From assembly GCF_001485215.1 (NCBI RefSeq), contig NZ_BBWW01000001.1, positions 3,782,001 through 3,846,000 of the forward strand: 64,000 nucleotides of DNA, read 5' to 3'. The position numbers were made by a program, and so were the translations under genes. Shown here piece by piece: positions 2,991-9,471 of this stretch. Below the pieces are notes generated by a model that saw only the letters and a program-made list of their open reading frames with translations, had not been told where the DNA came from and did no database searches. This stretch comes from Leptolyngbya sp. NIES-2104 (lineage in GTDB: Bacteria; Cyanobacteriota; Cyanobacteriia; Leptolyngbyales; Leptolyngbyaceae). Within the stretch, counting starts at the first letter, position 1; every line of letters begins with the position of its first letter.

Positions 2991-3205
2991 CTAAGAGGAT
3001 GTTTGAAAAGTTGTCGTTCGTTGCAGCGTCCCGCCCTGAAATGAATTTCGGGCTAATCGGCGCAAGTCCATTGAAATGGACTAAGAACTTGAAAATAGCT
3101 CCTAGTCTATTTCAGTAGACTTTCCACCATTAGCCCGAAATTTATTTCAGGGCGGGAGGCAATCGAAGCGAAGAAACTTTTTATACTTTTCAAACACCCT
3201 CTAAG
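2991..3205. repeat. 215-bp nested-palindrome element, copy A (MITE-like)
   Basis: The ends are imperfect inverted repeats: CTAAGAGGATGTTTGAAAAG on the left and, read in reverse complement, CTTAGAGGGTGTTTGAAAAG on the right (2 mismatches in 20). Inside lies a long palindrome whose arms are CCCGCCCTGAAATGAATTTC (from 3030) and its inverse (ending 3156). Each arm can itself fold, and two further small hairpins in the centre carry AGTCCATT-AATGGACT-type stems. No protein is encoded. The right terminus supplies the TAG stop of dnaN. The same architecture recurs at 29491-29705, 56004-56219 and, diverged, near 42226-42400. Confidence 0.85.
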
Positions 3206-4334
3206 ACCGAACCTGAACAGGCATTACGAGATAAGTCATCTTCAAGTTACCCAACGGCGACAAGACAACTGGACTCGTTGCCGTATTCAACTGCATCTGA
3301 ACTTCTGTGCTGTTGATTGCTTTCAGTCCATCGAGCAAGTACCGAACGTTAAACGCAATATCCATCCCTTCTCCAGAAATCTGAGCTGGAATTGCTTCTC
3401 GTCCACTGCCGACATCTTGAGCATCCACCGACAAAGTAAGCTGCTCAGTGATGGGATCAAGCTGCACTTTTACAATGTTATTTTTCTGGTCAGCTAACAC
3501 TGAAATCCGCTCCAACGCACTAAGAAACGCTCGTCGATCGATAGTCATCTGATGCGTAAATTGACGCGGAACAAGCTGACGATAGTTCGGATATTGTCCT
3601 TCTAACAGGCGGCTCGTCAGACGCTGATCCGTCCACTCGAACACCACTTGACCTTGATCAAATTGCACATTGATCGCATTTCCATTTTGGCGATCGAGCA
3701 TTTTCATCAACTCCTGAAGCGCTTTCGCTGGAACCGTCACATCCAGATGCGTCTCTGCTTCTGGAGCATCTTCTTCAACGGTTGTGACGACTGCCAATCG
3801 ATGTCCATCAGTGGCTGCAAACTCCAAACCATCCTGCTGCATACTGACATGTACACCCGTCAAGACCTGCTTCGTTTCGTCCGCACTTGCCGCGAACAAT
3901 GATCCGCGTAGACCATCGACTAAGCGATCGGCTGCCAACTGAGTCTGCTCCCCTTCGTCGATCTTCGGTAGTTCAGGAAACTCTTCAGCTCCCATTCCGC
4001 GAACCTGATAGCGTCCTGATGCTGAAGTAATGGTCGTGATGTGATTGGCATCGATATCGCTTTCGATCGTAATATCACCATCAGCTAATCGCGATACAAT
4101 GTCGTTCAGCAGTTTTGCGGGAAGCGTGAGAACGCCACCAGTTTCGACTTGGGCTGGAAAGCTTGTTTGAATGCCCAAGCTGAGATCGAAAGCGCTGAGA
4201 ATCACGCGCTGGCTTGCACTGTCCGCTTTTAGTAGAACGTTGGCAAGAATCGGATGGCTGGGGCGCGAAGCAACCGCACGACTAACCAGCGATAAGTGGG
4301 AGTTGAGGTGAGTTTGGGCGCAGACCAGTTTCAT
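3201..4334 (-). CDS. dnaN: DNA polymerase III beta subunit (sliding clamp)
   Basis: This is the ring-shaped clamp that tethers the replicative polymerase to DNA. The 377-aa product from ATG 4334 begins MKLVCAQTHLNSHLSLVSRA, the usual cyanobacterial start; an in-frame ATG at 4358 would add eight residues (MSHTPATS). Clamp signatures include NVRYLLDGLKAI and the C-terminal LVMPVQVR, close to the canonical M-P-x-R/L ending. Length and three-domain organisation are normal. The stop codon TAG lies inside the terminal inverted repeat of copy A of the palindromic element. The gene sits beside the DnaA-box cluster, as in other cyanobacteria where dnaN flanks oriC. Confidence 0.97.
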   Translation of the reverse strand: MKLVCAQTHLNSHLSLVSRAVASRPSHPILANVLLKADSASQRVILSAFDLSLGIQTSFPAQVETGGVLTLPAKLLNDIVSRLADGDITIESDIDANHITTITSASGRYQVRGMGAEEFPELPKIDEGEQTQLAADRLVDGLRGSLFAASADETKQVLTGVHVSMQQDGLEFAATDGHRLAVVTTVEEDAPEAETHLDVTVPAKALQELMKMLDRQNGNAINVQFDQGQVVFEWTDQRLTSRLLEGQYPNYRQLVPRQFTHQMTIDRRAFLSALERISVLADQKNNIVKVQLDPITEQLTLSVDAQDVGSGREAIPAQISGEGMDIAFNVRYLLDGLKAINSTEVQMQLNTATSPVVLSPLGNLKMTYLVMPVQVRS

Positions 4335-4479
4335 AGAAGTTGCCGGAGTATGGGACAAGAAAGCTGTGGAAAAGCGAGACGTACTCTATATAAGGCGAAT
4401 CTTTGAAGTTTTAACCCTACATCTAGCGTTTTTGATGGCGTTTGAGCATATTAACACTCTTTGCAGAATAGATCGATTC

Positions 4480-4700
4480 TGATGAAAAAATCATTGTCTT
4501 CAGTACTATTGTACGACTTGTGGAAAATGTGGAAAACTTAGCAAAAGGCGATTTTTGCGGACGAAGCGCGATCGTGCCCTGTGGAAAACTTTGACTCAGG
4601 CTGTGGAAAGATTCGGAATTTCCGCAGATCGATCGAGGTTTTCGACAGGTTTTTCACAGTTTTTCCACAGGAACGATGCGGTTTTCCACAGTCCGAACTG
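4480..4700. other. oriC: Probable chromosomal replication origin (oriC) with clustered DnaA boxes
   Basis: Five exact copies of the cyanobacterial-type DnaA box TTTTCCACA or its complement TGTGGAAAA occur: 4519-4527, 4528-4536 and 4580-4588 in one orientation, and 4661-4669 and 4682-4690 in the other. One-mismatch copies lie at 4602-4610, 4639-4647 and 4650-4658. The boxes therefore form two opposed arrays around about 4620-4635. Location directly upstream of dnaN agrees with the known position of oriC in Synechococcus elongatus. AT-rich stretches at about 4430-4515 or 4705-4765 are candidates for the unwinding element. The function is inferred. Confidence 0.8.
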
Positions 4701-4848
4701 AATCGATAAGCAGAAATAATCAGTTTCTCGGAATCATATTAGCCCAGCCTTTATTGCATCCTTTTTAGGAGAAAGTGAGGTTGCACTCGCAAAAAGGGAA
4801 CGTCAAACCCACCGATTGGTCATAACATTTACTGTAATTGCTTGTGAT

Positions 4849-6156
4849 ATGACCGCCAGTCTCAATCGCTCCGCCTCGCGCACTTCCTCCACCCTCCGTC
4901 CTATGGCATCGATCGCCCGTAAAAACCTCTTTGAAGATATCCCCCGGTTTATCGTCGCCCAAGCTGGAATCGTTTTCGCCGTTAGCCTCGTCACCATCCA
5001 AATCGGCATTCTTCGAGGCTTCAGCCGATCAACCGCTCGCCTGGTCGATCAGTCCAGTGCCGATCTCTGGGTCGCCTCACAAGATATCGTGCATCTCGAA
5101 TTGTCTTCACCGATGCCCGCTCAACGCGTAGAAGAAGCTCAAAAAGTGGCGGGAGTCGATCGAGCCGAAGCTCTAATGATTCGATCGAGCATTTGGCGCG
5201 ATAGTAACGGCAAAATTAGCCCGATTCGGATCTACGGCTTTGATCCAAATAGTCGCATGTTCGCAGGTTGGCAAGTCACACAAGGCAAGCTTTCAGATTT
5301 GAATCAGCCGTATTCAGTGATTGTTGATGCAAATAGTTTGAAAGGGTTGGGATTAAAGCAATTAAACGATCGCGCAACGATCGGAGCTTTTAACGCGCTC
5401 CCCGCCCGATTTGTTGGAAAGACACAAGACACTCAATCGATCGCATCGAGCGCATTTATCTACACTTCTCTAGAAAATGCCAACGCTTACGGTCTTGGCG
5501 GCTCAGACACTGGCATCACCTGCAAAACCGACTCTAGCGGCAGAATCGACTGCCTGAATCAAACACCCAAATTTGGCGACCCCGAACCGAATCCCCCTCC
5601 ACCGCGTCGCGTCAACGTGCAAGATCCCATTTCATTCGTCCTGATCCGCGCCAAACCGGGCGAAGATCTTGACCAACTCAGACAGCGGCTCAAATCTGCC
5701 TTACCCAATACCCGCGTGTTTACCCAAGCCGAAATTGCCGACCTCACCCGCTCCTACTGGACCACTCGAACCGGAGTCGGCTTTGTGCTTGGACTCGGTG
5801 CCACCGTCGGCTTTATCGTCGGAATGGTCATCGTCGGTCAAATCCTTTACTCATCGGTTTCTGACCATATTCGCGAGTTTGGAACTCTCAAAGCGATGGG
5901 TGCGTCAAACTGGGTAATCTACAGCGTGATTCTAGAACAAGCGCTTTGGATGGCGGTCTTGGGATATCTTCCCAGCATTGCTCTGTGTCTTGGTTTGGGT
6001 GCGTGGACGCAAGCCTCGAATGGCATCATGATTCTAATCACACCTGCGACTGGAGTCGGAATCTTCGTCTTAACCGTCGTGATGTGCGTTGGATCTGCCC
6101 TATTTGCGGTGCAAAAAGTGACCAGAGTTGATCCCGCGATCGTGTTTAAAGCATGA
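4849..6156 (+). CDS. ABC transporter permease, DevC/MacB-FtsX type
   Basis: The protein has a first transmembrane segment (IVAQAGIVFAVSLVTIQIGI), then a large extracytoplasmic MacB_PCD-type domain (roughly residues 60-300), and then three transmembrane segments of the FtsX core (GFVLGLGATVGFIVGMVIVG, with LKAMGASNWVIYSV between helices). Proteins of this type work as mechanotransmission or export permeases with a LolD/DevA-type ATPase. The candidate ATPase gene lies 335 bp downstream. The start is uncertain: ATG 4849 and ATG 4903 are both possible, and neither has a clear ribosome site. No DevB-like adaptor gene is adjacent. The substrate is unknown; heterocyst glycolipid export is only one known role of the family. 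Confidence 0.85.
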   Translation: MTASLNRSASRTSSTLRPMASIARKNLFEDIPRFIVAQAGIVFAVSLVTIQIGILRGFSRSTARLVDQSSADLWVASQDIVHLELSSPMPAQRVEEAQKVAGVDRAEALMIRSSIWRDSNGKISPIRIYGFDPNSRMFAGWQVTQGKLSDLNQPYSVIVDANSLKGLGLKQLNDRATIGAFNALPARFVGKTQDTQSIASSAFIYTSLENANAYGLGGSDTGITCKTDSSGRIDCLNQTPKFGDPEPNPPPPRRVNVQDPISFVLIRAKPGEDLDQLRQRLKSALPNTRVFTQAEIADLTRSYWTTRTGVGFVLGLGATVGFIVGMVIVGQILYSSVSDHIREFGTLKAMGASNWVIYSVILEQALWMAVLGYLPSIALCLGLGAWTQASNGIMILITPATGVGIFVLTVVMCVGSALFAVQKVTRVDPAIVFKA

Positions 6157-6491: not shown

Positions 6492-7289
6492 ATGACTGCA
6501 ACCTCGATAGATTTGATGTTTCGCGCTGAGAGTCGGGAGATCGAACCCGGCTCAAACAGCTTGGATTGGACAGATAAAGCGATCGCTGCTGGTGGGGTGG
6601 AGATGGTGTACCAGACCGGGGGCGAGCGCTATCAAGCATTGCGCCAGGTGGAGTTGACGGTGCGCTATGGCGACATTCAGCTTCTCATGGGTCCGTCTGG
6701 GTCGGGTAAAACGACGCTCCTGTCAATCCTGGCGGGAATTCTGACTCCGACAGGGGGTTCAGTTCGCCTGATGGGTCAAGACATTGCCAAGCTCTCTAGT
6801 GCAAAACTAGCTCAGTTCCGACTCAATAACATTGGCTTCATTTTTCAAGGCTTTAATTTATTTCCCGCCCTGAGCGCGATCGAGAACATTGAAGTTGCGC
6901 TCAATCTCAAAGGCATTCGAGGAACCGCAGCCCGCAAGGAAGCGTTAGAGCTATTGAATCAAGTGGGACTTGCCGATCGAGCGAAGCAACTTCCGAGAGA
7001 TCTTTCCGGTGGACAAAAGCAGCGAGTCGCGATTGCTCGTGCGCTGGCAGGCAATCCGTCGCTCATTATGGCGGATGAACCGACAGCGGCGCTCGATTCT
7101 CATAACGGTCATGCAGTGATCGAACTTCTACGATCGCTAGCGAAAGAGAAAGGGCGGACGGTGCTGATTGTGACACACGATCCACGAATTGCCGATGTTG
7201 CAGATCATATTGCTTATTTGGAAGATGGAATTTTACAGAGGGATGGACGATCGGAAATCGATCGATTTCGAGAAACCCTAACTCGATGA
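6492..7289 (+). CDS. ABC transporter ATP-binding protein, LolD/DevA type
   Basis: This 265-aa ATPase carries the complete set of nucleotide-binding motifs: Walker A GPSGSGKTT, Q-loop FIFQGFNLFPALSAIEN, signature LSGGQKQRVAIARAL, Walker B LIMADEPTAALD and the switch histidine in VLIVTHDPRIA. The FQxFNL/LSAxEN block and the length place it in the LolD/MacB/DevA group. It therefore probably powers the permease gene just upstream. A roughly 40-residue N-terminal extension precedes the core fold. It is separately spaced (335 bp) rather than overlapping, so it may have its own promoter. A strong terminator follows. Confidence 0.9.
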   Translation: MTATSIDLMFRAESREIEPGSNSLDWTDKAIAAGGVEMVYQTGGERYQALRQVELTVRYGDIQLLMGPSGSGKTTLLSILAGILTPTGGSVRLMGQDIAKLSSAKLAQFRLNNIGFIFQGFNLFPALSAIENIEVALNLKGIRGTAARKEALELLNQVGLADRAKQLPRDLSGGQKQRVAIARALAGNPSLIMADEPTAALDSHNGHAVIELLRSLAKEKGRTVLIVTHDPRIADVADHIAYLEDGILQRDGRSEIDRFRETLTR

Positions 7290-8172: not shown

Positions 8173-9330
8173 TCAATCCCCTTTCAGCCTTCTCAGTGCA
8201 TTATCGACTGCAAGCTGTTGATCTCGCTGCGTAATCCACTGATGATACGTTCGCGTGTGCACCAGTACCGAATGCCCCATCATCTTCGCAGCAACCGTGT
8301 CAGATAGCCCGATGTGAATCGTTCTGACTGCCCAAGCATGACGCAAGTCATAAGGAGAAAAGGGCAACTCATAGCGGTGAAATTGCGTCGTGACTCGTTT
8401 TCCAACTTGCTGCAATGTGGTTTTACTTAAATCGGTTTCAACAGACGGCAATTGAACATCACGCAAGTTAAACGCCTCGATCCATTCAGGGTGAAATGCC
8501 CACACTTGGTGACTTCCGGTTTTCGTCGTGGGCAAAACTTCGATCGAGGTTTCCCCCTTGTTCAAGCCGCTTAAATTACAGTAAAACACCTCATGATTTC
8601 TCAGCCCAAAGGTTGCCATCATGCCATAAACAAACTGCCAAGCCGAATTCGGAATCGTTGCCCAAATCGCTAAAATCTCATCATCCGAAGGCAATTGACG
8701 CATCTGAGTCTGACTTGCCCCGTAGCGACCCGAAAGCGTTTTCAAATCTTTCGGCAGCGCTAAGTTGAGAAATTCGGCAAACGCGCTCAGAGTTGTACAA
8801 CAGAGTTGGCGGCTGCGGGAATGATTTTTCGTCGCATCGATCGTTTTATAAATCACTTCAGTCAGCGTTAAAGATGGAGAATCGGCAGCGATCGCGCTTA
8901 ACTTTCTCAAGTAGGGCGCATACGCACTCGTCCAAGTGGTTTTCGTGGATGCGGGATTGATCGATCGTTCTGGTTGCTCGAAAAAATATTGCTCGAATGC
9001 AGCAATTTGCTGATTCAAGGTTTGCTGACTTAATCGTTTTCCATCGGTAAATGTGAGATATTCTCGCCAATCAAACTTGTTCTGAATTAACTGCGCCGCG
9101 ACGATTTTTGCTTCTTGTTCAATCTGTTTCAGCCCTGCGGGAGTTGCCGGAATTCCTAGACTTAGTCTCTGCTGATAAGGACGCAATCGAGAACTGTCTG
9201 GACGCGGTGGCAATGTTCCTCTAAGTGCCAATTTCACGCCTCGACGTTCCACTTGTAGACCCAATTGAGCCATCTTGAGACGCTGATTGAGTTGAACAAT
9301 TCGGGCATCTAATGCCGCTAAATCTGCCAT
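8173..9330 (-). CDS. Tyrosine-type site-specific recombinase/integrase
   Basis: The C-terminal half is a phage-integrase catalytic domain. The first catalytic Arg is in MATFGLRNHEVF, the H-x-x-R-like box is YDLRHAWAVRT, the conserved GH is in MMGHSVLVH, and the tyrosine nucleophile is in TRTYHQWIT. The N-terminal part (LNQRLKMAQLGLQVERRGVK, LRGTLPP) resembles an arm-type binding domain found in chromosomal cyanobacterial integrases. I chose ATG 9330 (MADLAALDARIVQ) over ATG 9408 because the recognisable domain begins there; the longer form remains possible. No attachment site or prophage genes are evident, so this seems to be a resident gene rather than an integrated element. Confidence 0.85.
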   Translation of the reverse strand: MADLAALDARIVQLNQRLKMAQLGLQVERRGVKLALRGTLPPRPDSSRLRPYQQRLSLGIPATPAGLKQIEQEAKIVAAQLIQNKFDWREYLTFTDGKRLSQQTLNQQIAAFEQYFFEQPERSINPASTKTTWTSAYAPYLRKLSAIAADSPSLTLTEVIYKTIDATKNHSRSRQLCCTTLSAFAEFLNLALPKDLKTLSGRYGASQTQMRQLPSDDEILAIWATIPNSAWQFVYGMMATFGLRNHEVFYCNLSGLNKGETSIEVLPTTKTGSHQVWAFHPEWIEAFNLRDVQLPSVETDLSKTTLQQVGKRVTTQFHRYELPFSPYDLRHAWAVRTIHIGLSDTVAAKMMGHSVLVHTRTYHQWITQRDQQLAVDNALRRLKGD

Positions 9331-9471
9331 CGGTAAGCGGTACAAAAAAGTCAACTTGATACATTGATTAAACTCAGCGAGATTGTCACCAACCCCGCTG
9401 GTCTTCAAAACCGTGCTTGAAGGTCTTTCAGTTCACACGGCTCCTCAATATCTTGATACTTGTCACATATA

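Follow-up and report, generated by a model that had tools for sequence, protein, structure and literature searches.

Genes and DnaA Boxes of the dnaN Locus

The window, i.e., the whole 64-kb stretch of DNA analyzed here, contains an intergenic region flanked by dnaN and by ABC transporter genes. The dnaN gene (3201..4334, minus strand), encoding the DNA polymerase III beta subunit, was identified by three Pfam domains and by the NCBIfam model TIGR00663 dnan, which confirmed the initial annotation in placing this gene beside arrays of DnaA boxes. On the other side of the region, an ABC transporter permease of the FtsX/MacB type (4861..6156, plus strand; approximate start codon, with the ORF searched from 4816) is followed by an ABC transporter ATP-binding protein (6492..7289, plus strand). 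A tyrosine-recombinase-like ORF was found at 8173-9408, a few kb from the putative origin, with a Phage_integrase score of 25.2 bits against a curated cut-off of 27.1 bits. No Rfam RNA genes were detected in the window at gathering thresholds.

A motif search with the DnaA box TTTTCCACA located three exact boxes on the minus strand at the left of the region, two of them in strict tandem with a 9-bp period (4519-4527 and 4528-4536) and the third at 4580-4588. Two exact boxes on the plus strand were located at the right (4661-4669 and 4682-4690, the latter being outermost). Boxes with one mismatch lie at 4602-4610 on the minus strand and at 4639-4647 and 4650-4658 on the plus strand. The five exact and three near boxes within 172 bp (4519-4690), the opposed orientation of the two arrays and the strictly tandem left pair had all been described in the initial annotation, and its coordinates were right to the base. 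A sixth exact box, absent from its list, occupies 4365-4373 (minus strand) in the dnaN leader, between the arrays and the dnaN start codon (4334). Six exact boxes are therefore contained in 326 bp upstream of dnaN, at 4365, 4519, 4528, and 4580 on the minus strand and at 4661 and 4682 on the plus strand.

The window contains seven exact boxes in total, compared with 0.94 expected and a maximum of five among 100 shuffles. When one mismatch was allowed, the window total was unremarkable (29 boxes vs. a mean of 22.03, with at least 29 in 6 of 100 shuffles), and the signal thus lies in the clustering of the boxes rather than in their count. The whole genome has 94 exact boxes, compared with 48 for the reversed control motif, and a genome-wide search for exact boxes matched six in 326 bp nowhere else. 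The site is the biggest TTTTCCACA cluster of the chromosome by number of exact boxes. The absence of a denser cluster elsewhere had been proposed as a supporting test; this held for the number of exact boxes but not per base, as two smaller arrays, with four exact boxes in 85 bp at C1:1850963 and three in 50 bp at C1:47960, are tighter than the five in 172 bp at this site.

Several further elements accompany the boxes. The stretch at 4446..4515, between the left array and dnaN, is a candidate duplex-unwinding region with 67% AT, a level attained by 1.3% of 70-bp windows across the 64-kb stretch; the right flank (4691-4760) has 60% AT, attained by 12% of equal-size windows. Five consecutive NAN triplets resembling DnaA-trios were found at 4705..4719 (plus strand), 14 bp past the outer box; the arrays lie between this trio-like run and the most AT-rich stretch. 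A published search for DnaA-trios required a minimum of three within 16 bp of a DnaA box (PMC8287927). Four NAN triplets at the same 14-bp offset were present in the dnaN loci L121, L123, and L141, and runs at other offsets were present in L122 (four at 21 bp) and L125 (seven at 18 bp). The other 12 of the 18 dnaN loci checked had three or fewer, and at least four occur at 7% of random positions.

A conserved -10-like element of dnaN, predicted from the alignment of relatives, lies at 4383..4392 (minus strand) as part of a putative promoter, just upstream of the dnaN-leader box. Beside the left array, a LexA-like site, AGTACTATTGTACG, was found at 4502..4515 (plus strand). It is the sole match in the window, and the consensus gave 10 matches in the 2.42 Mb sampled. 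Among 80 regions upstream of dnaN, such a site was present in six (the window, L121, L122, L123, L141, and L137), at a different distance from dnaN in L137 than in the other five. The LexA consensus is quoted in PMC3091678, the main text of which is without dnaN or dnaA. Judging from the position of the site by the tandem DnaA boxes, shared with four close relatives, an SOS link to dnaN or to the origin is possible.

Conservation of the Boxes Upstream of dnaN

In all, 80 dnaN loci taken from public genomes were compared, 79 of which have at least 600 bp of upstream sequence (L144 has only 7 bp). At least two exact boxes were present within 1 kb upstream of dnaN in 46 of the 79 loci, and at least three in 42. 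The nearest named relatives of the genome are LEGE 13415, FACHB-63, and Phormidium tanganyikae, which points to a Leptolyngbya-like cyanobacterium. Among the first 23 listed relatives (L121-L143), the region upstream of dnaN carries exact boxes of both orientations, ordered alike, in 21; L137 and L140 have exact boxes on one strand only. The 34 of 80 dnaN loci that are without two exact boxes within 1 kb, including L144, are mostly Nostocales by name, and L157 and L192 have a box cluster 3.3-4.4 kb upstream of dnaN instead.

Seven upstream regions, from genomes selected by dnaN and not by boxes, were aligned. Invariant columns accounted for 49 of 54 positions in exact boxes vs. 80 of 509 elsewhere, and the dnaN-leader box (4365-4373) was present in all seven. 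Together with the 21 of 23 relatives, these results demonstrate that both the boxes and their layout are conserved. In the genomes G105, G114, G123, G131, G143, and G189 of family f32, as well as in G182 and G137, listed box pairs lie approximately 0.7-2.4 kb from dnaA, according to coordinates compared by eye, which places the cluster close to dnaA in those genomes, unlike the separation of about 1 Mb in the present one.

DnaA and Strand Composition of the Chromosome

The dnaA gene of this genome is intact, encoding complete DnaA_N, ATPase, and DNA-binding domains and scoring above the DnaA equivalog cut-off. It is located 1.13 Mb from the dnaN and box site. For strand composition, 119 stretches were sampled, which together make up 42.6% of the 5,695,116-bp chromosome. 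A skew minimum within a few kb of the boxes had been proposed as a supporting test; on this sample, the minimum of the cumulative GC skew was found at 3.43 Mb, approximately 0.36 Mb away, and the test failed. The cumulative profile is irregular. In permutations of 121 pieces of 20 kb, neither the arm skew difference at dnaN (0.0033, p 0.26) nor the best skew position anywhere (p 0.21) was significant, and the same was true of the gene-strand bias at dnaN (-0.025, p 0.63) and of the skew corrected for gene strand (p 0.20). A significant V-shaped skew was found nowhere on the sampled chromosome, neither at dnaN nor elsewhere.

A GC-skew shift at the origin, as seen in Synechococcus elongatus, is not general in the phylum, and none was found at this site on the 42.6% sample. 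Irregular skew is common in cyanobacteria, a clear V being typical of clades C-G and an irregular profile of the others (PMC7198777); Leptolyngbya does not appear in the text of that study. A skew shift is thus no defining feature of oriC, and its lack here weakens the claim that the site is used, not the claim of what it is. It has been reported that three cyanobacteria with dnaA can do without DnaA, that the DnaA of two of the three still binds oriC boxes, and that ChIP-qPCR detected binding of S. elongatus oriC by the DnaA of three cyanobacteria (PMC7198777). The function of DnaA in species not needing dnaA was called unclear in the same study.

DnaA-Box Arrays Elsewhere on the Chromosome

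Conserved DnaA-box arrays away from oriC are a more interesting outcome of this analysis than the ordinary origin itself. Clusters were searched with exact boxes genome-wide and, in a second search, within the 42.6% chromosome sample. Three further clusters stood out, at C1:47960-48009, C1:1850919-1851047, and C1:515591-515993, and all three were found again in relatives with the gene context preserved.

The first (L002:7960-8009) consists of three tandem TTTTCCACA boxes on the strand opposite to guaA, 54 bp 3′ of this GMP synthase gene. Within the same genus, L209, L210, L211, and L215 also have the array 3′ of guaA, and L217-L220, from other genera, have it there with one of the gaps widened. 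In L212 and L213, the array stands beside the other usual neighbors, guaA not being found in the stretch. The second cluster (L003:10919-11047) comprises four exact and two one-mismatch boxes between YkoY/TerC-family and PD-(D/E)XK genes. Seven genomes of the same genus share it, as does L208 from another genus; in L205, there are just two boxes. The PD-(D/E)XK side is shared by L201, L202, and L204-L208, and the other side by L203, which ends before the PD-(D/E)XK gene. The third cluster (L005) lies approximately 0.3-0.7 kb upstream of hemJ and occurs again in the genus members L214 and L216. A triple array was also seen 0.7 kb upstream of a hemJ-family (UPF0093) gene in L328, Tildeniella nuda. 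No Rfam RNA genes were detected at gathering thresholds in L002, L003, or L005.

Columns of exact boxes were invariant at 27 of 27 positions in the guaA cluster (vs. 50 of 163 others, seven genomes), at 35 of 36 in the 1.85-Mb cluster (vs. 258 of 563, six genomes), and at 18 of 18 in the hemJ cluster (vs. 309 of 602, three genomes). This invariance arises partly by construction, since the relatives were picked for carrying box pairs, and as proof for the outlying arrays it is weak alone. In addition, approximately 600 bp around the 1.85-Mb cluster are conserved, and conservation of the hemJ region likewise extends beyond the boxes. Independent support comes from the shared gene context and, for the guaA array, from its single orientation. 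A fixed distance from oriC was also considered and rejected: values of 0.69 and 0.68 of the half-chromosome were obtained here, but they were not repeated in two genus members compared by eye.

The guaA Array Among Cyanobacteria

To cover the class, 194 genomes were searched, blind to genes, for three same-strand boxes with a first step of 20-21 bp and a second of 20-31 bp. Triple arrays were found in 65 of the 194 genomes, and the backwards control motif gave none. After removal of three overlapping second matches, 73 arrays remained, and the position of guaA was known for 70 of them. Nearly half of these (34 of 70) lie 32-1090 bp 3′ of guaA, i.e., within 1.5 kb, and 36 lie elsewhere. All 34 guaA-side arrays, from 34 genomes and 10 families, are on the strand opposite guaA. 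The guaA array is thus located outside oriC and conserved in position. Triple arrays were also carried by 8 of 20 genomes reached via named loci, and guaA was in the fetched stretch for five of these eight (those of L121, L123, L126, L140, and L158).

For 35 distinct guaA-array loci, the direction of the longest ORF beginning no more than 900 bp past the array was noted. In 25 of them, this ORF is oriented toward guaA, which would place the array between gene 3′ ends. The opposite ORF direction was seen in 10 loci, among them that of the present genome, whose array and the start of a DUF3122 ORF overlap; a mechanically called ORF overlaps the array in 7 of the 35. The spacing of the boxes is also regular. 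Among the 150 box pairs listed, 132 are spaced by 9-12 or 20-22 bp, close to one or two helical turns, compared with 34 expected if steps were even.

The array is not universal, as many families are without one at guaA. Among 70 guaA-centered loci, at least two exact boxes in the expected orientation were present within 700 bp in 19, and the control motif in none. This figure is not a prevalence, the loci being the 30 best guaA matches plus 40 chosen mostly from genomes without a known array; among the 40, only G023 has the array. Searches with 10 proteins encoded beside the other arrays gave no Pfam family for five and no common family for the rest. In L322 of Picosynechococcus sp. PCC 7117, a triple array (C1:1817633-1817682) stands beside a YGGT-family gene, and the 13-kb dnaN locus of the same genome (L193) has no exact boxes. 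In PCC 7002, a relative of PCC 7117, dnaA is dispensable (PMC7198777). In six genomes of other families (G041, G057, G084, G104, G170, and G202), a GTATTTATAC or GTATAAATAC palindrome lies between two cluster boxes; neither palindrome is shown by the arrays of the window.

Identity and Probable Use of the Origin

The intergenic boxes beside dnaN, their clustering, the conservation of their place and layout, and the intact dnaA indicate a standard, ordinary cyanobacterial origin, and its identity as oriC by descent is firm. Its use in vivo is less firm and is inferred, as are DnaA binding in this species and the opening site. We consider it probable that this cyanobacterial lineage has inherited the cluster as its chromosomal oriC, with DnaA opening the DNA at the opposed arrays. 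The statement of the initial annotation that the layout fits a cyanobacterial origin accordingly holds for the locus, through the dnaN neighbor, the motif, and the conserved layout, and the skew test gave it no support as to use. In the proposed mechanism, DnaA would bind the two opposed TTTTCCACA arrays between dnaN and the ABC transporter operon, oligomerize, and open the DNA at an array edge, allowing helicase loading. The DNA may open either in the AT-rich stretch toward dnaN (4446-4515) or, on the far side of the arrays, in the trio-like run (4705-4719). The dnaN-leader box probably lets DnaA influence dnaN expression.

Against this reading stand the lack of a V in skew or gene strand, the distance of 1.13 Mb to dnaA, the three cyanobacteria that have dnaA without needing it, the 34 of 80 dnaN loci without two boxes, and the 28 of 180 dnaA-positive genomes without a tandem pair. 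The trio-like run also counts against it, since its offset differs in L122, most of the other genera checked do not have it, and the AT-rich stretch is on the other side of the arrays. The lacking skew V would suit a polyploid cyanobacterium with asynchronous or scattered initiation. The most serious alternative, although clearly the less probable one, is that the site is oriC by descent but is now dispensable, replication starting independently of DnaA or at scattered places while the boxes serve other functions of DnaA. Such species exist, examples of DnaA-independent or scattered initiation being Nostoc PCC 7120 and Synechocystis PCC 6803, and the unclear function of their DnaA (PMC7198777), like the missing V in skew and gene strand at the site, would agree with it. 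However, dnaA is intact, and the full opposed layout, conserved across relatives, is hard to explain without initiation. It is improbable that the chromosome has many origins and that the other clusters, above all C1:1850919-1851047, are among them, despite the irregular skew and the six near-exact boxes of that cluster within a region conserved over approximately 600 bp. At the 600-kb scale, the 1.85-Mb cluster is among the highest 5.1% of positions by skew and the highest 2.8% by gene strand; the guaA array is among the highest 4.4% by gene strand. These ranks (0.051, 0.028, and 0.044) are uncorrected and represent 3 of 45 site-scale-measure tests; shorter scales show nothing, no consistent local skew switch was seen at the arrays outside oriC, and opposed arrays like those of oriC are lacking at the guaA and hemJ clusters.

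It is even less likely that the region is regulatory only, with DnaA and perhaps LexA controlling dnaN. The conserved box just downstream of the -10-like element in the dnaN leader and the LexA-like site between the array and dnaN would fit such control, but the right-hand array is more than 300 bp from the dnaN start and conserved like the rest, and published origins have the same layout. In favor of a chance cluster, the motif is AT-rich and dnaA-negative genomes commonly contain single boxes too; nevertheless, this reading is excluded, because a Poisson model predicts only about 2e-12 clusters of six boxes in 326 bp and because the boxes are conserved in place among relatives. An inherited oriC thus remains the preferred reading, and it would offer a well-defined site on a skewless chromosome at which DnaA dependence is directly testable.

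Possible Relation of the Outlying Arrays to DnaA

The dnaA gene was present in 180 of 183 good-quality genomes and absent from G157, G163, and G169. These three dnaA-negative genomes contain 111, 112, and 93 single boxes, respectively, compared with 44, 19, and 49 occurrences of the control motif, which rules out single-box counts as a sign of DnaA function. Tandem box pairs were found in none of the three but in 152 of the 180 dnaA-positive genomes (Fisher p 0.0045), a comparison that involves few and perhaps not independent dnaA-negative genomes and in which 28 of the 180 dnaA-positive genomes are also without a tandem pair. Only tandem pairs, not single boxes, appear to follow dnaA in this set with its three dnaA-negative genomes.

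From their sequence and context, the arrays at guaA, hemJ, and PD-(D/E)XK are best read as further DnaA-binding loci that would tune the supply of DnaA, and by analogy they are candidate DnaA-titrating or -resetting loci of the datA/DARS kind. It is plausible, although we propose it tentatively, that a conserved set of arrays titrates or resets DnaA in a role apart from oriC. The set would comprise the guaA array, with three boxes spaced by about two turns, 3′ of the gene and opposite to it in strand in 10 or more families, and the hemJ and PD-(D/E)XK arrays. If this is true, DnaA would have a conserved non-oriC role also in skewless species in which its need for replication is doubtful. The outlying arrays thereby bear on the task of DnaA in cyanobacteria not needing it, a question raised in PMC7198777. 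A transcriptional role for DnaA bound outside oriC is already suggested in the introduction of that paper; if a conserved array sits between gene 3′ ends, a DnaA-control locus would be indicated instead. No description of such a locus in cyanobacteria was found in the available literature searched, and the outlying arrays are undescribed in the available text of PMC9640692, PMC7198777, and PMC10225481.

Comparison With Known Systems

In a comparison of 68 species, most cyanobacterial origins had intergenic TTTTCCACA boxes next to dnaN, and DnaA binding has been demonstrated for the origin of Cyanothece ATCC 51142 (PMC4674748). The present oriC shares the intergenic boxes and the dnaN neighbor with those of Synechococcus elongatus PCC 7942, Anabaena PCC 7120, and Cyanothece ATCC 51142. 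The Cyanothece 51142 oriC has three boxes, and that of S. elongatus has eleven repeats, seven of which are TTTTCCACA (PMC4674748). Particular to the present oriC are the two opposed arrays, the spacings of 9, 11, and 21 bp, and the LexA-like site. Furthermore, S. elongatus has a skew shift at oriC, whereas none was found on the sampled part of the present chromosome. The trio-like run 14 bp after a DnaA box is a candidate counterpart of the bacterial unwinding system of B. subtilis and S. elongatus, which consists of a DnaA box plus DnaA-trios, but unlike in that system, it is found at varying offsets among relatives.

The roles of E. coli datA and DARS are described in the abstract of PMC4585315. 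Like E. coli datA, DARS1, and DARS2, the outlying arrays are short, non-coding, and far from oriC, and the guaA array lies mostly where no promoter is expected. The neighbors and spacing of E. coli datA, DARS1, and DARS2 differ from those of the cyanobacterial arrays. In B. subtilis, eight intergenic DnaA-box regions apart from oriC have been reported (cited in PMC7198777). Those regions regulate genes, whereas the guaA array has a convergent neighbor in 25 of 35 loci.
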